Shown here one piece after another: positions 162-17,331 of a stretch of 38,016 bases of DNA. A program made the translations under genes and the position numbers. Source of the stretch: Methylothermaceae bacterium (GTDB lineage: Bacteria; Pseudomonadota; Gammaproteobacteria; Methylococcales; Methylothermaceae). Numbering within the stretch: the stretch's first letter is position 1; every line of letters begins with the position of its first letter. Under the pieces are notes generated by a model. The model made no database searches. It worked only from the letters and a program-made list of their open reading frames with translations, and was not told the origin of the DNA. The stretch covers positions 1 to 38,016 of the forward strand of contig JALSGR010000306.1 of the NCBI GenBank assembly GCA_026982635.1, in the 5' to 3' direction.

Positions 162-887
162 GTGCGCCGCTCCCGCCTGTACCTGCCCGCCTCGCTGCAG
201 AGCGGTCGTGAGGTGACCGTCGAGGGTGAGCGCGCCCACTATCTGCGCAGCGTGCTGCGGTTGCGTGCCGGCGCGGCGTTGACGGTGTTCGACGGCGAAG
301 GCGGCGAGTTCGAGGCCGAGGTGCTTTCCGTCGAGCGCCACCGGGTCCGTCTCCGGCTCGGTGCCTGGCGCGACGTGGACCGGGAATCGCCCTTGCGCGT
401 CCATCTGGGGCTGGCCGTCGCCAAGGGGGAGCGGATGGACTGGGCGGTGCAGAAGGCGGTGGAACTGGGGGTGGCCTGCATCACGCCGCTGCTGACCGAG
501 CGCGGCAACGTCGTGCTCGAAGGCGAACGCGCCGAGCGCCGCCGCCGCCACTGGCAGGCCGTCGCCATCGCCGCCTGCGAGCAATGCGGCCGCAACCGGG
601 TACCGGCGGTCGCCACGCCGCAGCCGCTGCCGGCCTGGCTGCCGGGCCGCCGTGGTCTGGTCCTCGATCCTTCGGGTGCTGCGCTGGGCGCGTTGCCGGA
701 ACCGGCGGGGGAGTTGGCGCTGCTGGTCGGTCCCGAGGGGGGGTTGACCGACGCCGAGCTGCGTCTGGCCGAGGCCGAAGGACTGGCACCCACGGCCCTC
801 GGCCCGCGGATTCTACGGGTGGAGACCGCGGCGGTGGCGGCCCTGACGGCGGTGCAATGCCGCTGGGGGGATCTGGCGAGCCGGTAA
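162..887 (+). CDS. rsmE: 16S rRNA (uracil1498-N3)-methyltransferase RsmE
   Basis: MRRSRLYLPASL...ERAHYLRSVLRLR...VGPEGGLTDAE...LGPRILRVETA motifs; GTG start. Confidence 0.93.
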   Translation: MRRSRLYLPASLQSGREVTVEGERAHYLRSVLRLRAGAALTVFDGEGGEFEAEVLSVERHRVRLRLGAWRDVDRESPLRVHLGLAVAKGERMDWAVQKAVELGVACITPLLTERGNVVLEGERAERRRRHWQAVAIAACEQCGRNRVPAVATPQPLPAWLPGRRGLVLDPSGAALGALPEPAGELALLVGPEGGLTDAELRLAEAEGLAPTALGPRILRVETAAVAALTAVQCRWGDLASR

Positions 888-937
888 CCCCCTTGTCATC
901 GGCCGCTCACGCGTTTGTAACGCCGGTGTCGGAGAAT
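882..937 (+). promoter_or_regulatory. Pho-box-like tandem 11-bp repeats plus -10 upstream of the PlcP-like gene
   Basis: CGGTAACCCCC/TTGTCATCGGC/CGCTCACGCGT/TTGTAACGCCG (882-925, exact 11-bp phase), then GAGAAT at 932-937. Confidence 0.6.
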
Positions 938-971
938 GGCCTCTCCGATCCGCTTTAGGAGGGCGCGTCTC

Positions 972-1769
972 ATGCTGGAATATCGCACCGTCTGCCTTTC
1001 CGATCTCCATCTGGGTACCCGCAGCTGCAAGGCCGACTATCTGCTGGATTTCCTCCGTCACGTCCATTGCCGGAAGCTGTATCTGGTGGGCGACGTTCTC
1101 GACCTGTGGCGGCTGCGCAAGGGGGGGTGGTTCTGGCCCGCCTCGCACGATGCCGTGGTTCGGCGGATTTTCGCCCTGGCCCGGCAAGGGACGGAAGTGA
1201 TCTACATCCCCGGCAATCACGACGGGACGATGCGCGATTACGAGGGGACGGGGATCGAAGGCGTGCGTCTGCGTGGTCGTTGCTGTCACCGAAGCCTTGA
1301 CGGCCGCCGTCTGCTGGTGCTGCACGGTGACGAGTTCGATACCGTCATCAACGGCGGAGGCGCGTTGCGTTTCCTTGGCTGTCTCACCTACGACAGTCTG
1401 GTGGAGATCAACCGTTGGGTGAACCTGTACCGGGTTCGCCGCGGCTTGCCTTACTGGTCCTTCTCCGGATTTCTCAAGTCCCGGATCGAGAACGCGCGCC
1501 GTTACATCGCCAACTTCGAAGAAACCTTGATGAGGAACGCCCGCCGTCACGGTTTCGACGGTGTGATCTGCGGCCACATCCACCACCCGGCGCTGCGCCA
1601 GGTGGACGGGGTGTTCTACGCCAACTGCGGCGACTGGGTGGAAAACTGTACGGCCCTGGTCGAGGATACCGCGGGTCGGTGGCGTCTCATCCGCTGGGCG
1701 ACCGAGAGCGCCTACCTGCTCGATCTCGAGCGGGAAGAAAATGCGGGAGCGGCGTTGCTGACGGATTAG
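972..1769 (+). CDS. Calcineurin-like metallophosphoesterase, PlcP-like (usually annotated UDP-2,3-diacylglucosamine diphosphatase family)
   Basis: SDLHLGT, LVGDVLDLWRL, IPGNHD, LHGDEFD, GHIHHP metallophosphoesterase motifs; 265 aa. Confidence 0.85.
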   Translation: MLEYRTVCLSDLHLGTRSCKADYLLDFLRHVHCRKLYLVGDVLDLWRLRKGGWFWPASHDAVVRRIFALARQGTEVIYIPGNHDGTMRDYEGTGIEGVRLRGRCCHRSLDGRRLLVLHGDEFDTVINGGGALRFLGCLTYDSLVEINRWVNLYRVRRGLPYWSFSGFLKSRIENARRYIANFEETLMRNARRHGFDGVICGHIHHPALRQVDGVFYANCGDWVENCTALVEDTAGRWRLIRWATESAYLLDLEREENAGAALLTD

Positions 1770-2524
1770 CCGGCCCGTCGTGCCGGTGCCACCGATACCG
1801 TGGCGATGGTGTTCCTGGCCCGGCGGGCAAGCGATCGGCGACAGCGGTCCTGGATCGGCGGGTGCCAGTGGCAGCGGACGTCCACCTCGGATAGGCACAG
1901 CAGGCGCCACAGGGAAGCGGCGAAGGTGTCGTCGCCGACGAACGGCGCGGCGGCTGCTGCAGCGCCGAGATAATTCAAGCTGACCGGCTGGACCGGGACG
2001 CCGGCGTCGATCGCCGCCTGCAGGAGCGAGGAGGCGAACGGCAGGACCCGGTCGCCCCGGCTGGTCGTCCCTTCGGGAAAGAGCGCCACCCGCTCGCCCC
2101 GTCGGAGCCGTCCACCGACCGCCGCCCGGATTCGGTGCATCGACCTCAGGCTGCCCCGCCGGATGAATAAAGTGCCGCTGCGGCGGGCCAGGGTTCCGAT
2201 CAGCGGCCAGCGGGCGACTTCTTCCTTGGCCACGAACGTCAGCGGCGCTTGACAGCCCAGGACCACGATGTCGAGCCAGCCGATATGGTTGGCGACGACG
2301 AGGAGCGGGCCTGTGGCGGGCCGGCCCATTGCCTCCAGGCGCAGGCGCAACAGGCGGGCCAGCCCCCGGAACCAGCGCAAGCGGACGGCGTCACAGCGGT
2401 GGGCGTCGAGACGGGTGAGCCAGGGAAAGACGGCGATCAGAATCACGACGCCCCAGATCAACCACGCCAGGACGACGGCGGCCCGTCCCAAGGCCCGCCA
2501 CGTCGTTGCGCTGGCGTCAGGCAT
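1766..2524 (-). CDS. Lysophospholipid/1-acyl-sn-glycerol-3-phosphate acyltransferase, OlsA-like
   Basis: PlsC motifs NHIGWLD and FPEGTTSRGD; overlaps the upstream OlsB-like gene by 8 bp. Confidence 0.85.
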   Translation of the reverse strand: MPDASATTWRALGRAAVVLAWLIWGVVILIAVFPWLTRLDAHRCDAVRLRWFRGLARLLRLRLEAMGRPATGPLLVVANHIGWLDIVVLGCQAPLTFVAKEEVARWPLIGTLARRSGTLFIRRGSLRSMHRIRAAVGGRLRRGERVALFPEGTTSRGDRVLPFASSLLQAAIDAGVPVQPVSLNYLGAAAAAAPFVGDDTFAASLWRLLCLSEVDVRCHWHPPIQDRCRRSLARRARNTIATVSVAPARRAG

Positions 2525-3296
2525 GACCGTGGATTTCCGCAGGCCGCCGGATGAAACGACGGGAATAGCGGGCCTTGAGGCGGGTCAACGGCAGGAGGAT
2601 GAACACGTCCATGCAGTCGAAGGCTTCGTCCCAATACGGCTCGCCGCAGACCCAGGCGCCCAGCCGGAGATAGGTCTGCAGCAGCGGCGGCAGGCCGCAG
2701 TCGTCGCGCTGACAGCGTAGATGATCGGGCACCGGCCGCAGCGATCGCACGTTCAGCCACAGGGGGCCCCGCTGTGCCGGGGTGAGGCGGCGTTGGAACG
2801 CCTCGACGGCGAATCCCGACGGCCCTGGGGGGATGCTGGCGCAACCCATCAGATAATCGAAACCGCGTTCGATGGCGTAACGCGCCAGACCGGACCACAA
2901 AGTCGTCAGGACGATGCCGCCGCGGCAGGCGGGATCGATGCAAGTGCGCCCCACCTCGAGGAATCGCCCCGGCAGGGTGAAGATCGCGTCGATGTCGAAT
3001 TCCGTTTGGGAATAGAATCCTTCGCCGCGTTCGGCGGCCTGGTCGCTGAGCAGGCGGGTGGTGGCGACGATGCGGCCGTCCTGGCGGTCCTGGACCACGA
3101 GATGATCGCAGTATGGATCGAAACGATCCTGTTCGATGCCGTCGCCGGGCAGACGGGCGCCGAGTTCTTCGACGAAGACGCGGTATCGCAGTCGATAGGC
3201 GGCCGCCACCGTGGCGGGATCGAGGGCGACGAGCGTCTGATAACGGCCGGAAATCTCGGAACGTTGCCACCGGCCGGTGGGAATATCTTGTCGCAT
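2517..3296 (-). CDS. GNAT-fold acyltransferase, OlsB-like (L-ornithine N-alpha-acyltransferase family)
   Basis: RLRYRVFVEELGA...DRFDPYCDHLVV...FLEVGRTCIDPACRGG...YLMGCASI; GGAG SD before ATG at 3296; alternative start 3308. Confidence 0.78.
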   Translation of the reverse strand: MRQDIPTGRWQRSEISGRYQTLVALDPATVAAAYRLRYRVFVEELGARLPGDGIEQDRFDPYCDHLVVQDRQDGRIVATTRLLSDQAAERGEGFYSQTEFDIDAIFTLPGRFLEVGRTCIDPACRGGIVLTTLWSGLARYAIERGFDYLMGCASIPPGPSGFAVEAFQRRLTPAQRGPLWLNVRSLRPVPDHLRCQRDDCGLPPLLQTYLRLGAWVCGEPYWDEAFDCMDVFILLPLTRLKARYSRRFIRRPAEIHGHA

Positions 3297-3333
3297 GGTC
3301 GGCTCCATGTTCGTGAAACGCGGCGTCAACCCT

Positions 3334-3384
3334 AAGACGGCGATATGACAATGTGACGATGAGTTTGTGACGGTTCGATGGCAG
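3334..3384 (-). promoter_or_regulatory. Pho-box-like tandem repeats upstream of olsB-like gene
   Basis: Minus strand: CTGCCATCGAA/CCGTCACAAAC/TCATCGTCACA/TTGTCATATCG (3384 to 3341), 3 of 4 units match CTGTCAT-like core. Confidence 0.5.
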
Positions 3385-3390
3385 CATCAC

Positions 3391-3446
3391 CGGTCATCGA
3401 GCGGTAACCGAACGGTGATCGATTTGTCATTTGCGGCGGCTAGTTT
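3391..3446 (+). promoter_or_regulatory. Pho-box-like array of four 11-bp direct repeats plus -10 upstream of PAP2/glycosyltransferase operon
   Basis: CGGTCATCGAG/CGGTAACCGAA/CGGTGATCGAT/TTGTCATTTGC in exact 11-bp phase, then TAGTTT at 3441-3446. Confidence 0.68.
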
Positions 3447-3484
3447 GGGAAAGGTCCGTTTCATCGTTGACGAGGGGATTTCCC

Positions 3485-4012
3485 ATGCGTGTTCTCCAGT
3501 CGCTGCAGCATTACGACGAGATCCTGTTTCTCTGGCTTCTCCAACGGCGTTGCCATCGATGGCTGGTCGCCGCCAGCCGGTGGGTGTCGCGCACCGGCGA
3601 CGGTTACTGGTACGCTCTCCTCGGGGCCGGGTTGGGGTGGTTCGACGGGGACCGCGGGGCGGCGTTCCTAGGCGCCGGTCTGGTCGCTTTTCTCATCGAG
3701 CGGCCGACGTATTTTCTGCTCAAGAACGGTTTTCGGCGGGGACGTCCCCAGACCCGTCTGGCCGGGTTTCGCAGCTACGTGGTGCCGGCCGACGAGTTCA
3801 GCTTCCCTTCCGGTCATACTTCGGCGGCCTTCGTCACTGCGGTGTTGCTTTCCTGGTTCTATCCGGCGCTTTCCCTGCCGGTCTTTCTCTGGGCGGCGGC
3901 GGTCGGCCTGTCGCGGGTCTTGCTCGGGGTCCATTATCCCGCCGACGTTCTGGCCGGCGCGGTGATGGGGACGCTGTGCGCCTGGGCCGGGTTGATCTGG
4001 TCGGGCGGATGA
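3485..4012 (+). CDS. PAP2 superfamily phosphatase
   Basis: KNGFRRGRP, FSFPSGHTSAA, SRVLLGVHYPADV PAP2 signature triplet; multiple TM segments. Confidence 0.92.
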   Translation: MRVLQSLQHYDEILFLWLLQRRCHRWLVAASRWVSRTGDGYWYALLGAGLGWFDGDRGAAFLGAGLVAFLIERPTYFLLKNGFRRGRPQTRLAGFRSYVVPADEFSFPSGHTSAAFVTAVLLSWFYPALSLPVFLWAAAVGLSRVLLGVHYPADVLAGAVMGTLCAWAGLIWSGG

Positions 4013-5049
4013 GGATCCTCTACGGCGTCCAGGGGACCGGCAACGGCCATTTGACTCGGGCTCGGGTCATGGCCCCGGCGCTCGCGGCGGCCGGCATCGA
4101 AGTCCAGTTCCTGTTCAGCGGCCGCCCGCGGGAACAATTCTTCGACATGGCCCTCTTCGGCGACTGGTGGTGGCGTCGCGGCTTGACCTTCGTTTCCCGG
4201 GGCGGGCGCGTCGATTACTGGCGAACCCTGGCGAAGGCCGGCGACCTTCCCGCCTTCGTCCGTGACGTGCGCCGCCTGGATCTGACCGGCTTCGATCTGG
4301 TGCTCAGCGATTTCGAGCCGGTATCGGCCTGGGCCGCCCGCCTTCAGGGGGTGCCGGTGATCGGCATCGGCCATCAGCAGGCGTTTCGCCACGCCGTTCC
4401 CAAATGCCGTGGTGGCTGGCACGCGCGTCTGTTGATGCGCTGGTACGCCCCGGCTCCCGTCGGCCTCGGGTTGCACTGGCATCATTTCGATCAGCCGATT
4501 CTGCCGCCGCTGGTGTCGCCCTTGCCGGAGGCGGCGGCCGATCCCCGGAAGGTGCTGGTCTACCTGCCGTTCGAGTCGTTGGCGAGTATCCGGGCGTTGT
4601 TGCGGCCTTTTTCCGCATGGCGCTTTCACGTCTATCACGGTCAGGTGCTTCGACGCGCTTCCGAAGGCCATCTTCACTTGCGACCGTTTTCTCGGGATGG
4701 TTTTCAGCGGGATCTGGCCGCCTGCGGCGGTGTGATCTGCAACAGCGGCTTCGAGCTCATTTCCGAGGCGCTGGCGGGGGGTAAGAAGATTCTCACCAAG
4801 CCCCTGGGGGGGCAGTGGGAACAATGCAGTAACGCCCGGGCGCTGGAAGCGTTGGGGTGGGGGACGGTGATGCCTTGCCTCGATTCGGCGGCGGTGGCCC
4901 GGTGGCTGGAAAGCGGCGTGGCGGTGCAGGTGCGTTATCCGGACGTAGCCGGCGCTATCGTTGCCTGGTTGCGGGAGGGGGCGGGAAGGATCGATCCCGG
5001 CTGGGCCGCTTCCGTCTGGGAGGGCTGCGAGGTCCGTCAGGTGGCCTGA
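4009..5049 (+). CDS. MJ1255/VC2487-type glycosyltransferase
   Basis: MRILYGVQGTGNGHLTRARVMAPAL...VICNSGFELISEALAGGKKILTKPLGGQWEQ; ATGA overlap with PAP2 gene. Confidence 0.85.
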   Translation: MRILYGVQGTGNGHLTRARVMAPALAAAGIEVQFLFSGRPREQFFDMALFGDWWWRRGLTFVSRGGRVDYWRTLAKAGDLPAFVRDVRRLDLTGFDLVLSDFEPVSAWAARLQGVPVIGIGHQQAFRHAVPKCRGGWHARLLMRWYAPAPVGLGLHWHHFDQPILPPLVSPLPEAAADPRKVLVYLPFESLASIRALLRPFSAWRFHVYHGQVLRRASEGHLHLRPFSRDGFQRDLAACGGVICNSGFELISEALAGGKKILTKPLGGQWEQCSNARALEALGWGTVMPCLDSAAVARWLESGVAVQVRYPDVAGAIVAWLREGAGRIDPGWAASVWEGCEVRQVA

Positions 5050-5645
5050 TAACGGTCGTAGGTGGCGGCGGTGGCGGCGTTGTTGGCCCGCACCCGGCGT
5101 TCGATCTCCTCGGCGCTGACGGGGCCGGCGGCGTCCAGTTCACCGATCAGATCGCGGCGGATGGCGATGGTCAGTTCCGCCAGCGCGTCATGGAGGTCGT
5201 CTCGTTCGCGGTGGTCGAGGCGGCGGTCGCCGATGCTGGCCGAGAAGATTCGCAGCAGGTTCTGGAAGCGCCGCAGCACTTCCGGGCTGGCGGAGATGGC
5301 CAGCTTGTGGGTGAGGAATTGGAGGCGGACGACGTCGTCCTCGGTGATCTGGGGTTGATGGAACAGCCCTTCCAGGTAATGGAGCAGATCCAGGTAGATG
5401 GTGGTCTTGAGGTCGAGGAACTTGACGTTCTGTTCCTTGGTCAGCTCCACTTCGGTCTGTTTGTTGAGCAGGATGGCGGTGATGAGCACGGTGGCCAGGG
5501 TGCCGAGGACCACCAGGACGATTTCCTGGGTGAAGGGCATCGGTTCGGCCACATGGTAGGCGGCGCGCAGAAAGAAATAACCGCCGACGAAGAGGACGGC
5601 GGTCAGCCCCATCTGGAGCAGGGTTTGCAGGCGGATCCGGGTCAT
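5037..5645 (-). CDS. Hypothetical protein with two N-terminal TM segments
   Basis: MTRIRLQTLLQMGLTAVLFVGGYFF...; 202 aa; ATGA-type overlap with upstream plsC-like gene. Confidence 0.75.
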   Translation of the reverse strand: MTRIRLQTLLQMGLTAVLFVGGYFFLRAAYHVAEPMPFTQEIVLVVLGTLATVLITAILLNKQTEVELTKEQNVKFLDLKTTIYLDLLHYLEGLFHQPQITEDDVVRLQFLTHKLAISASPEVLRRFQNLLRIFSASIGDRRLDHRERDDLHDALAELTIAIRRDLIGELDAAGPVSAEEIERRVRANNAATAATYDRYQAT

Positions 5646-6376
5646 GAATGGCTGATGTCGGCCATTGTCGCCTCGATCCACGCCTCGGCGCGGCGGTTGA
5701 TCTCCTCGGCCGGCAGTTCGGCGCCGTCCAGGGGCGGGCCGATGACCAGGGTGATGGTGCCGGGATGTTTGAGGAAGCCGTTGCGGGGCCAGTGTTCGCC
5801 GGCGTTGTGGGCCACCGGTACCACCGGCGCTTTGGCGCGGGCGGCCAGCACCCCGCCGGAGCCGGCGTAGCGGCGCCGTTCCCCCGGGGCGACCCGGGTT
5901 CCCTCCGGAAAGATGATGATCCAATGACCTTCCTGCAGCCGGCGCAATCCCTGTTTCATCAACGCCACCATCGCTTTCTTGGGTTTGCTGCGGTCGATGG
6001 CGATGTGGCGGTAACGCCCCAGGCACCAGCCGAAGAAGGGAATCCTCAACAGTTCCTGCTTGAGGACGTAGACGGTGCGGGGAAAGATCAGGAACAGCAT
6101 CAGGGTTTCCCAGGCCGACTGGTGCTTGCTGAGGACGACGCCGTTGCGCGCCGGGATGTTTTCCCGCCCCTGGATGTCCCAGTCGATGCCGCAGATCCAG
6201 CGTAGGGCGGTGAGAATCGAGGCGGCCCACAGCCGCGCCAGCCGGTAGCGGTATTCGTACCGGGGCAGGGTCGAGGCCGCCAGCACGATGGGGGTCATCA
6301 CCACGGTGATGGTGGTCTGCACCAGGAGGAACAGCGCCGAGCGCAGGAAAAGCAGGGGGGTGAGGTCGCGTTTCAT
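5642..6376 (-). CDS. 1-acyl-sn-glycerol-3-phosphate acyltransferase
   Basis: SKHQSAWETL, IAIDRS, IIFPEGTRVAPGE motifs. Confidence 0.92.
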   Translation of the reverse strand: MKRDLTPLLFLRSALFLLVQTTITVVMTPIVLAASTLPRYEYRYRLARLWAASILTALRWICGIDWDIQGRENIPARNGVVLSKHQSAWETLMLFLIFPRTVYVLKQELLRIPFFGWCLGRYRHIAIDRSKPKKAMVALMKQGLRRLQEGHWIIIFPEGTRVAPGERRRYAGSGGVLAARAKAPVVPVAHNAGEHWPRNGFLKHPGTITLVIGPPLDGAELPAEEINRRAEAWIEATMADISHS

Positions 6377-8447
6377 CCTTGCAGCTTGGAAATGTCCGCG
6401 ATTTCGAGGAACAGCCGCGCCACCTGGGCCAGCAGATCGAGGCGGTTGCGGCGTACGGCCTCGTCCTCCACCATCACCATCACCTGGTCGAAGAAGGCGT
6501 CGACGCTGGTGCGCAGCCCGGCCAAGCGTTTGAGGGCGGCGGTGTAGTCGTGCCGGGCCAGCAATGGTTCGACGTCGGTGCGGGCGGCCTGCAGTTCGTG
6601 GAACAGGGCGCTTTCCGCCTCGGTTTCGAACAGGGCAGGATCGACCTTGCCGGCGGCGGTCACCGGCCTTTCCGCCTGACGCAGGATGTTGCGGATGCGT
6701 TTGTTGGCGGCGGCCAGGGTTTCGGCCTCCGGCAGGCGGCGGAAAGCGTGGACCGCCTCGAGGCGGTGGTGGAAGTCGAGCAGGCTGACCGGCTCGACGG
6801 CGGCGACGGCCTCGAACTCGTCGGCGGAGAAACCGCGCTCGCCGAGATGATGGCGCAGGCGTTCCAGGATGAATTGGAACACCTGGCGCACCACGGCCTT
6901 GCGCTCGAAGGTATGCTCGTAGAGGTCCGCGGCCCGGCGCAGCAACGCTGTCAAGTCCAATTCCAGCCGCCGTTCCAGGATGATACGGATCACTCCCAGG
7001 GCGGCTCGGCGCAGGGCGTAAGGATCCCTGGTGCCGCTGGGGATTTGGCCGATGCTGAAAATGCCCACCAGGGTGTCTATCTTGTCGGCCAGGGCCAACG
7101 CCTGACCGGACGGGGTTTCCGGCAGCCGGTCGCCGGCGAAGCGGGGGCGATATTGTTCCTCCAGGGCGGCGGCCACCTCCGGGTCTTCTCCTTGGGCGAG
7201 GGCGTAGTAGCGTCCCATGACGCCCTGGAGTTCCGGAAACTCCCCTACCATGTCGGTGACCAGGTCCGTCTTGGCCAGGCGGGCGGCGCGTCCGGCCTTT
7301 TCCGGATCCGCTCCCACGCGGGGGGCCAGATCGGCGACCAAGCGCTCCAATCGCCGGGTTTTGTCCAGCAGGGTGCCGAGCTTCTTTTGAAACAGGATGC
7401 CGGCCAGTCGGTCCAGGCGCCGTTCCAGCGGCGTTTTCAAGTCCTGGTGCCAGAAGAACTCGGCATCGCTCAGTCGCGGGCGGATGACGCGCTCGTTGCC
7501 GGCGCGCACCGTCGCCGGATGCTTGCTGTCGAGATTGGCGAAGGCGATGAATCGGGGCAGCAACCGCCCGTCGGCGTCGAGGACCGGGAAGTATTTCTGG
7601 TGGGTCTGCATGACCGTGATCAACACCTCCTTGGGCAGGGCGAGGAACCGGTCCTCGAATGCGCCCACCAGCCCCACCGGCCATTCCACCAGGGCGGTGA
7701 CCTCGTCGAGGAGATCGTCCTCGATGTGGGCGCGGCCGCCGGCCTCCTGCGCCAGTCGGTCCGCCTGCTGGCGAATGTGGTTGCGACGTTCGGCGAAGTC
7801 GGCCAGTACCCGGCCTTCGCTCAGCAGCAGTTGGGGGTAGTGATCCGGCTGGCGCAGCCGCAGCGGCTGCGGACAGTGGAAACGGTGGCCGTGGGTGGTG
7901 GCGCCGGTCTGCACGCCGAGGATTTCCGTCTCGATGACCTGCTCGCCGTAGAGGAGCACCGCCCAGTGGACCGGGCGGACGAATTCGGCCTCCCCGTCGC
8001 CCCAGCGCATCCGCTTGGGGATGGGCAGGGCGGCCAGGGCGCGGTTCAGGATTTCGGGCACCAGTTCCTCGGCTTTTCGGCCCTGCTGGTGAATCCGGCA
8101 CAGGAGCCAGCGGCCTTTCTCGTTCTCTAGGATTTCCAGATCCTCGACGGCGACACCGCAGCTCTTGGCGAAGCCCAGGGCGGCGGCGGTCGGTTTGCCT
8201 TCGGCGTCGAAGGCGGCTTTTACGGCCGGACCCCGGCGCTCGACGGTTTTGTCCGGCTGGGCTTCGCACAGTTCGTGGACGATCAGCGCCAGACGCCGGG
8301 GGGTCGCGTAGGCGTCGATGTAGGCGAAGGCCAGGTCGGCCTTGGTCAGACGCTCGGCCACCCCGTCGCGCAGGGCCGCCATCAAGGTGCGCAACGCTTT
8401 GGGGGGCAGTTCCTCGGTACCCAGTTCGAACAACAGATCGTGACGGT

Positions 8448-8451
<4 letters not shown>
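6373..8451 (-). CDS. glyS: Glycine--tRNA ligase beta subunit
   Basis: [20 protein letters not shown]...; typical length 692 aa, downstream of glyQ. Confidence 0.97.
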
Positions 8452-9350
<899 letters not shown>

Positions 9351-9418
9351 GGTCGCTGGCCTGTCGGTTAAAAGCGGGTATTATACGGCTTTGTCACGCA
9401 AGTTGGGGATGTGCCTCC

Positions 9419-9913
9419 ATGCGATTGCTACCGTTACTGCTGGCCTGGTCGCTCTTGAGCGGCTGCGGTTTCCACCTGCGCGGCGCCGTGGATTTGCCGC
9501 CCGACGAGCGGGTCGTCGCCCTGGCGGGTATCGGCCTGGACCGGCCGTTCGCCCGTGAGCTGCAGCGGCTGCTCGAGCTGGTGGAAGGCCGCCTGACACG
9601 CGATCCCAAGGAGGCTGGCAGCGTGGTGGTCGTCCATCAGATCCAGCAGGACCGGCGTATCGTCTCTCTGGACGAACACGGCAAGGCGATCGAGTTCGAG
9701 CTGGTCTATCGGGTGCGCTTCGAGGCGCGCAAACCGGATGGCCGCGTGCTGTTGCCCATGCAGACCATCACCATCCGTCGCATTTATCTCAATCCCCAGT
9801 TCCAGATCATCGGTAAGTCGGAAGAAGAATCCGTCATCCGGGAGGAAATGCGGCGGGAGGCGGCCCGCACCCTGTTGCGCCGGTTGCGGAGGGTTCTGGT
9901 CAATGCGGATTGA
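9419..9913 (+). CDS. lptE: LPS assembly lipoprotein LptE
   Basis: Lipobox LLSGCGFHLRG; precedes holA. Confidence 0.9.
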   Translation: MRLLPLLLAWSLLSGCGFHLRGAVDLPPDERVVALAGIGLDRPFARELQRLLELVEGRLTRDPKEAGSVVVVHQIQQDRRIVSLDEHGKAIEFELVYRVRFEARKPDGRVLLPMQTITIRRIYLNPQFQIIGKSEEESVIREEMRREAARTLLRRLRRVLVNAD

Positions 9914-10940
9914 TTTCCCGCAGTTGGCGTCCCAGCTGCGCCAAGGCCCCAGGCCGGTCTATCTGCTTCACGGTGACGAGCCGCTTCAGCTTACCGAGGC
10001 CGCCGACGCGATCCGCCGTTGTTGTCGGGATCACGGCTTCGAGGAGCGCCGGATCTTCACCGTGTTGCCGGGATTCGATTGGGGGGAACTGGCGGCGGAG
10101 GCCGAAGCTTTGCCCCTGTTCGCCAGTCGTCGTCTCCTCGACGTCCGGGTGCCGGAGGGCAAGGTGGGGAACGAGGGTGCCAGGGTGCTGGGCCGCTATG
10201 CCGAGGCGCCGGCCGCCGACACCGTCTTGCTGTTGATCCTGGAGAACGCGCCGGCGGCGGTGACTCGGGCGGGTTGGTTCCGGAGCCTGGAGCGCCTCGG
10301 CGTCGCGGTGCAGACTCGGGTCCTGCATGGCCGGGAGTTCCTCGCCTGGCTGGATCGTCGTGCCAGGACACGGGGGTTGCAACTGAGCGGTGACGCCCTT
10401 CAGTTGCTGGCTCTGCGCACCGAAGGCAATCTGTTGGCCGCCGCTCAGGAGATCGATAAACTGCACGTTTTGTTCGGCGCCGCCGTCGTCGATGCCGACC
10501 GGCTGGCCCGGGCGGTGGCGGACAGCGCCCGCTTCGACGTCTTCGATCTGGTGGAGGCGATGCTGCTGGGGCGGGTGGTGCGCTGTGACCGGATCCTGTC
10601 CGGCCTGGCGGCGGAGGGCGTGGCCCCGGCCGTGGTATTATGGGCGGTCACCCGGGAGGTGCGGCTGTTGCTGACTTTGTTGGACGACCGGCGCCGCGGC
10701 GTCGCGCTGGCGGAGAGTTGTCGTCGGCTGCGGCTGTGGGATCGGCGCAAGGCCCAACTGGAACGGGCCCTGCAGCGGCTGCGGCCGGCGGACTTGCATC
10801 GGGCCGTCCGTCTGGCGGCGCGAATCGACGCCCGGATCAAGGGACAGCAGGACGGCGAGGCGTGGCCGGGGCTGCGCGATTTGTGCCTCGGCCTGGCCGC
10901 CGGCGCCGATCGGTGGATGGGTATGATGGAGACAGGATGA
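9903..10940 (+). CDS. holA: DNA polymerase III subunit delta
   Basis: [21 protein letters not shown]...; 345 aa; overlaps lptE. Confidence 0.93.
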
Positions 10941-10947
10941 GAGAGCG

Positions 10948-12213
<1,266 letters not shown>

Positions 12214-15954: not shown

Positions 15955-17331
15955 ATGCGAACTTTGATCCGGGCCGTATCGACCCTGAGTGTGGCTGCCT
16001 TGTCCATTGCCCCCGCTCTGGCGGAATCGACGATGCCGACCCCGGAGGAACTGTGGCGCATCGTGCAGCAGCAACAGAAGGAGATCGAGGCCCTCAAGGC
16101 CAAACTGGCGGAAAAGGAGAAGGTCGGCAAAACCGAGGCCAAGGCGGCACCCGAGGAAGTCGAGGAGTTGAGACGCGAAACCAGCATCCTGGCGCAGGAG
16201 CTGGAGAAGATGCGTACTCTGTTGGTGATTCCCGAGGAACCGGAATACAAATCCATGTACGGTCTGGGTCCGGCGGCCTCCAAGGTCTATCAGGTGGGCA
16301 AGGGGTTGTCCATCGGCGGCTACGGTGAAGGACGTTATCAGGTATTCACCGATGATCAGAACGGCAGGAAGGACAACGCCGACTATTTGCGATTCGTGCT
16401 CTATGTGGGTTACAAGTTCAACGACTGGATTCTGTTCAACAGCGAGCTGGAGTTCGAGCACGCCACGACGGGTCGGGGGGGATCGGTATCGGCGGAGTTC
16501 GCCGCCCTCGATTTCTTTCTCGATCCCCGGGCCAACGTCCGCGCCGGAATCGTGTTGATCCCGATGGGCTTCATCAACCCGATCCATGAACCGCCGTTCT
16601 TCTTCGGCAACCACCGTCCGGAGGTGGAGCAGCGGATCATTCCCACCACGTGGCGCGAATTGGGGGTCGGGTTGTTCGGGGAATTGTTCCCGGGTCTGAC
16701 CTATACTACATATGTGGTCAACGGTATGGACGCCACCGGGTTTTCCGCCACCGGTATCCGCGGCGGTCGTCAGAACGCCAGCAGGGCCAAAGCGGAAAAT
16801 CTGGCCTGGGTCGGCCGGGTGGATTATGCGGTGCCCTGGGTGCATGGGTTGCTCGTCGGCGGATCGGCCTATCTGGGCAACTCGGGGCAGGACGAGATCG
16901 GCAGCGCTGACGTCTTCACCCAGATCTACGAAGGTCATCTCGAATGGAAGTATCGGGGTTGGGAGGTGCGCGCCCTGGGCGCTTGGAGCCACATCGACGA
17001 CGCCGACAAGGTCAGTCGGGTGGTGGGTGAGACGGTGGGCCGCGAACAGTTCGGCTGGTACGCCGAGGCCGGTTACAACGTCTTGCCCTGGCTGCTGCCG
17101 GATTCCACTCAGTATCTGGCGCCCTTTTTCCGCTACGAGCGTTGGGACACCCAGGCCGAGGTGGCCGGCGGGTTCGAACAGAACGGCAACCTAGACCGGC
17201 GCTTGTGGCAGGTGGGGATTCACTACAAACCGATTCCCAACGTGGTCATCAAAGCCGACTATCGGAATTTCGATGCCGATCAGGGCGAGGTGGCCGACGA
17301 GCTCAACTTGGGGGTCGGCTTCATTTTCTGA
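15955..17331 (+). CDS. Outer-membrane beta-barrel porin with N-terminal coiled coil
   Basis: Signal peptide, EELWRIVQQQQKEIEALKAKLAEKEK coiled coil, alternating amphipathic strands, C-terminal LNLGVGFIF. Confidence 0.85.
   Translation: MRTLIRAVSTLSVAALSIAPALAESTMPTPEELWRIVQQQQKEIEALKAKLAEKEKVGKTEAKAAPEEVEELRRETSILAQELEKMRTLLVIPEEPEYKSMYGLGPAASKVYQVGKGLSIGGYGEGRYQVFTDDQNGRKDNADYLRFVLYVGYKFNDWILFNSELEFEHATTGRGGSVSAEFAALDFFLDPRANVRAGIVLIPMGFINPIHEPPFFFGNHRPEVEQRIIPTTWRELGVGLFGELFPGLTYTTYVVNGMDATGFSATGIRGGRQNASRAKAENLAWVGRVDYAVPWVHGLLVGGSAYLGNSGQDEIGSADVFTQIYEGHLEWKYRGWEVRALGAWSHIDDADKVSRVVGETVGREQFGWYAEAGYNVLPWLLPDSTQYLAPFFRYERWDTQAEVAGGFEQNGNLDRRLWQVGIHYKPIPNVVIKADYRNFDADQGEVADELNLGVGFIF

Follow-up and report, generated by a model that had tools for sequence, protein, structure and literature searches.

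Four direct repeats with an 11-bp period lie in a short intergenic gap upstream of a PAP2-family phosphatase gene and a glycosyltransferase gene (the PAP2-GT operon), raising the question of which regulator would read them and to what end. The window analysed here (38,016 nucleotides) forms contig C306 in the 2.26-Mb genome (G000) of a methane-oxidizing bacterium from the order Methylococcales. An earlier note had taken the repeats for a Pho box, and four units exactly 11 bp apart, followed by TAGTTT, do lie where it had placed them; its reading was nonetheless incomplete, as it overlooked two further boxes, one facing olsBA and one before a plcP-like gene. The array is very probably a landing site for PhoB, and we are highly confident in predicting that region 3329–3446 as a whole is a bidirectional PhoB-activated promoter in a Pho-controlled lipid-remodelling locus (plcP, olsBA and PAP2-GT). 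The features of this locus are as follows.

882–925, plus strand: third four-unit Pho box, 5′ of the plcP-like gene (CGGTAACCCCC TTGTCATCGGC CGCTCACGCGT TTGTAACGCCG); score 18.3
932–937, plus strand: −10-like GAGAAT, 6 nt past the plcP box; in relatives with a box, TAnnnT at +6 in 15 of 23
972–1769, plus strand: plcP-like calcineurin-type phosphoesterase; Pfam Metallophos, far under the LpxH cut-off, orthologues across the order
1766–2524, minus strand: olsA-like lyso-ornithine lipid O-acyltransferase; NCBIfam OlsA 143 bits, cut-off 300
2517–3308, minus strand: olsB-like ornithine N-acyltransferase; NCBIfam OlsB 148 bits, cut-off 320
3329–3334, minus strand: −10-like TAGGGT, 6 nt past the olsB box; TAnnnT at +6 in 27 of 28 orthologues
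3341–3384, minus strand: second four-unit Pho box, facing olsBA (CTGCCATCGAA CCGTCACAAAC TCATCGTCACA TTGTCATATCG); top score of the window, 24.0
3391–3434, plus strand: four-unit Pho box (predicted PhoB site) of the PAP2-GT operon; score 17.4, kept in 30 of 30 relatives
3391–3401, plus strand: unit 1 of this box, CGGTCATCGAG
3402–3412, plus strand: unit 2, CGGTAACCGAA
3413–3423, plus strand: unit 3, CGGTGATCGAT
3424–3434, plus strand: unit 4, TTGTCATTTGC
3441–3446, plus strand: −10 element TAGTTT, 6 nt past the box; TAnnnT at +6 in 30 of 30 orthologues
3485–4012, plus strand: PAP2-family membrane phosphatase; Pfam PAP2, 1.7e-22
4009–5049, plus strand: MJ1255/VC2487-family glycosyltransferase, overlapping the PAP2 gene by 4 nt; TIGR00661

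Pho boxes consist of 11-nt direct repeats in which seven positions are conserved, reading CTGTCAT in E. coli (PMC4415409). The window has direct 11-nt repeats with seven conserved positions, the box stands in place of a −35 element at a fixed distance (6 nt) from the −10 and the host encodes both PhoB and PhoR. All three sites share one layout, in which four units are followed after 6 nt by a −10-like hexamer. The olsB and PAP2 boxes lie back to back on opposite strands of the same intergenic gap, 6 bp apart, with the former outscoring the latter (24.0 versus 17.4), while the plcP box overlaps the stop codon of rsmE. The position of the plcP box favours ATG 972 over ATG 936 as the start of the plcP-like gene, for which AGGAGG is found at 957–962. 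E. coli pstS has four units, 6 nt and TATTTT and phoA has two units, 6 nt and TATAGT (NC_000913); the 6-nt gap of the PAP2-GT box equals that of both promoters, the earlier note having likened its spacing to that of phoA. The window shares with these promoters the 11-bp CTGTCAT-type direct repeats and, with pstS, the succession of four units, 6 nt and a −10; it departs from them in that its units are GC-rich and more degenerate and in the back-to-back pairing of two boxes. No consensus σ70 promoter (a −35/−10 pair) was found at 800–5300, as expected for an activator-dependent promoter in which PhoB replaces the −35. Other genes nearby (window 162–12213) look like ordinary housekeeping genes: rsmE, which was tested, and, by eye from the translations, a plsC-like acyltransferase gene, glyS, glyQ, lptE, holA and proA.

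The boxes were scored with a seven-position matrix derived from 20 PhoB units of E. coli K-12 (NC_000913; the phoA, phoB, pstS, ugpB, phoE, phnC and phoH promoters), a source chosen to avoid circularity; no window sequences entered the matrix. When four tandem units at 11-bp spacing were scored on both strands of the whole window, only three places gave positive scores (3341–3384, minus strand, 24.0; 882–925, plus strand, 18.3; 3391–3434, plus strand, 17.4), all of them at the olsBA, plcP and PAP2-GT promoters, and the next unrelated site reached −2.4 (shifted registers of the same arrays set aside). The best match in 30 dinucleotide shuffles of the window, both strands, had a mean of 4.3 and a maximum of 13.0. 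No 360-nt window tile outside the promoter regions exceeded −2.4. A degenerate TGTCA pattern allowing three mismatches discriminated poorly (52 matches, little above the 33 in the control), and its genome matches are informative only at two mismatches or fewer. Within the PAP2-GT array, unit 4 is strong (11.5), units 1 and 2 are moderate and unit 3 is slightly negative, having GTGA for GTCA. Such uneven units are what a chance repeat in a GC-rich gap might look like, but a score of 17.4 did not arise in any of 5000 shuffles of the intergenic region and the exact phase and −10 spacing recur in all 30 relatives, making chance a vanishingly improbable explanation, as the earlier note had supposed. 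What is persuasive here is the combination of 11-bp phase, −10 spacing and conservation and not the perfection of the repeats. A dispersed repeat was ruled out, as a 33-mer of the array is present in a single copy in an exact genome-wide search.

PAP2 matches were found in 36 of 61 genomes searched. A four-unit array precedes PAP2 in all 30 loci fetched, the window's own included (shuffle p ≤ 0.0025 each), and olsB in all 28 usable loci (L101, a partial match, being left out); the plcP-like gene has one in 21 of 30 loci at p ≤ 0.01. Median scores at 11-bp spacing were 18.7 for PAP2, 21.2 for olsB and 9.3 for plcP, and 11 bp was the only spacing between 7 and 16 bp to give positive medians with this matrix, those at 7–10 and 12–16 bp all being negative. 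TAnnnT falls at exactly +6 in the proportions listed above and almost never at other offsets. Loss of the 11-bp phase in relatives had been named in the earlier note as one observation that would refute a Pho box; the comparison showed the phase to be conserved. The upstream regions appear too diverged across families for simple alignment, and conservation of the array is thus not trivial sequence identity, although some pairs, such as G000 and G007, are nearly identical and should count once. The divergent olsB/PAP2 layout is kept in four genomes with 4–6 bp between the boxes, and the invariant columns include box bases. The genes plcP, olsB and PAP2 tend to co-occur or to be jointly absent within the genus: all three are present in six genomes and all are absent or weakly matched in three. 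In one relative (G003, L121 2718–3767), an alkaline phosphatase-like gene directly upstream of plcP extends the Pho cluster, and a four-unit box was found 232 nt before plcP. A wider sample comprised the 80 named genomes with the best glycosyltransferase matches. PAP2 lies directly upstream of the glycosyltransferase gene in 71 of them. A box at p ≤ 0.005 accompanies the pair in 65 of the 71, among them Shewanella, Vibrio, Marinobacterium, Amphritea and a Nitrosomonas; of 552 control stretches similar in length, four exceeded a score of 5 and one a score of 10. As a predicted PhoB target, the pair is conserved across the gammaproteobacteria.

Direct repeats spaced by about 11 bp are also recognized by several regulators of the OmpR/PhoB family. 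The genome holds 27 response-regulator matches to the PhoB profile, and unit 2 in relatives often reads TTAA instead of GTCA, so that use of the sites by another member of this family has to be considered. It is nevertheless very unlikely, as the independent E. coli PhoB matrix singles out these very sites, the PhoB of the genome agrees with that of E. coli at all eight DNA-contact positions checked (R193, H198, R200, R201, R203, T217, R219 and Y223) and further boxes precede the genes for a porin O/P (phosphate porin; 36.2) and an alkaline phosphatase (16.5). This PhoB scores 319.7 bits, over the family cut-off, as in nine of nine genomes, and is identical to E. coli PhoB at 125 of 229 positions. 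PhoR is encoded as well (398 bits). The Pho-box reading thus draws support from conservation, from the PhoB and PhoR genes and from boxes at other typical Pho genes. The phoB promoter itself has at most a weak two-unit match. The TIGR00975 (PstS) profile gave no clear gene in the genome and TIGR02136 a weak pstS-like gene; the main pstS-like gene showed no convincing box. A weaker Pho-like array (8.2) lies at positions 16178–16204 of contig C123, flanked, by eye, by an MlaA-type lipoprotein-like gene and an RNase T-like gene.

The genes behind the second and third boxes suggest what the regulator would control. The phosphoesterase has the marks of PlcP, being calcineurin-like, distinct from LpxH (38–41 bits against the LpxH profile, cut-off 190), preceded by a box and adjacent to genes for non-phosphorus lipids; in Methylococcaceae genomes its orthologue is followed by an Agt-like glycosyltransferase gene. 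We infer a PlcP-like enzyme, with hydrolysis of phospholipid to diacylglycerol as its predicted activity. That it serves as the LpxH of the genome is disfavoured by the far sub-cut-off score and by the absence of the gene from four same-genus genomes. A lipid A role keeps some small probability, since the genome yielded no LpxH over the cut-off and no LpxI; the same search came up empty in six same-genus genomes. Lipid A synthesis would need an enzyme of the LpxH/LpxI type, and the plcP-like gene is the sole LpxH-like match. The acyltransferase genes both fall short of the NCBIfam equivalog cut-offs and are therefore termed OlsB/OlsA-like, the models being apparently alphaproteobacterial, judging from their names. 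A Pho box 5′ of olsB is also known from Acinetobacter (PMC11828411), but in the window olsB and olsA are joined, and they share their promoter region with the divergent PAP2-GT operon.

The PAP2-GT operon is harder to interpret. The catalytic motifs of PAP2 (KxxxxxxRP, PSGH and R..H) are invariant, and the nearest solved folds to its model are Bacillus subtilis PgpB and Aquifex LpxE. The glycosyltransferase belongs to the MJ1255/VC2487 family (TIGR00661, 231.8 bits, cut-off 195.9); a sequence search of the PDB gave no match, and its model (pLDDT 83.7) has a GT-B fold closest to the antibiotic glycosyltransferase/MurG group (CalG3, MurG and YjiC), a broad group that leaves the acceptor unsettled. 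PAP2 is as close to LpxE (TM 0.77/0.81) as to PgpB, and its best NCBIfam matches are undecaprenyl-diphosphatases, far under cut-off. These matches, together with a fold group that does not specify the acceptor, would also fit true PhoB sites whose products make no glycosyl-diacylglycerol, with PAP2 acting as a lipid A 1-phosphatase or undecaprenyl-diphosphate phosphatase and the glycosyltransferase modifying the envelope to leave less surface phosphate. We hold this to be possible but doubtful, given that the olsBA-like and plcP-like genes of the locus point, if indirectly, to replacement of membrane lipids. The canonical enzyme for that purpose, Agt, is a GT4 diacylglycerol glycosyltransferase, a different family from that of the window enzyme, and no strong orthologue was found in the genome with a Methylococcaceae Agt-like protein as query (best match 53.5 bits, partial, against 455–795 bits where agt is present). 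Some same-genus genomes have near full-length but weaker GT4 matches (76–92 bits), in which a distant Agt is conceivable. Two Methylococcaceae genomes (G012 and G024) have Agt and PAP2-GT together, indicating that the two are not simple substitutes. We regard PAP2-GT as a candidate for glycolipid synthesis in the absence of canonical Agt.

Taken with the lipid-replacement reading, these predictions suggest a mechanism. On phosphate starvation PhoR would phosphorylate PhoB, which would bind the 11-bp units of the two back-to-back boxes head to tail, stand in for the absent −35 and bring RNA polymerase to both −10 elements. Induction on the leftward side would supply olsBA for ornithine lipid synthesis and on the rightward side PAP2-GT, while the third box would activate plcP. 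Phospholipids would then be broken down by PlcP and by PAP2 (acting on lipid phosphates), and the phosphorus-free products would be ornithine lipid and probably glycosyl-diacylglycerol. The cluster very probably serves to replace phosphorus-containing membrane lipids with phosphorus-free ones at phosphate exhaustion; the weakest step is the choice of substrates for PAP2 and the glycosyltransferase.

The mechanism and the promoter type are textbook knowledge, and what is new is the locus and the PAP2-GT operon. In having a plcP-like gene and a Pho box beside genes for phosphorus-free lipids, the locus resembles plcP-agt remodelling in Pseudomonas aeruginosa (PMC8528852), marine bacteria (PMC4796936) and Methylosinus (PMC9239053); unlike these, its plcP has no adjacent agt, with PAP2-GT and olsBA present instead. 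Proteobacterial methanotrophs have plcP throughout and OlsBA in some cases; type Ia methanotrophs have no agt beside plcP, several of their genomes having another putative diacylglycerol glycosyltransferase, and the Methylosinus MGDG synthase was left without a named enzyme (PMC9239053). The open-access papers searched assign no role to the PAP2-GT pair and do not report the operon as a Pho target, although an earlier report may exist. Whether PAP2 and the MJ1255/VC2487-family glycosyltransferase form a widespread PhoB-controlled pathway to phosphorus-free glycolipid in gammaproteobacteria that works without Agt and fills the gap in type Ia methanotrophs is, in our judgement, evenly balanced. 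The prediction connects an uncharacterized operon, which ranges from methanotrophs to Vibrio and Shewanella, with the phosphate-starvation response and with two known types of lipid-replacement genes. It offers a concrete candidate for the glycolipid enzyme of type Ia methanotrophs and bears on how methane oxidizers may cope with phosphate shortage.
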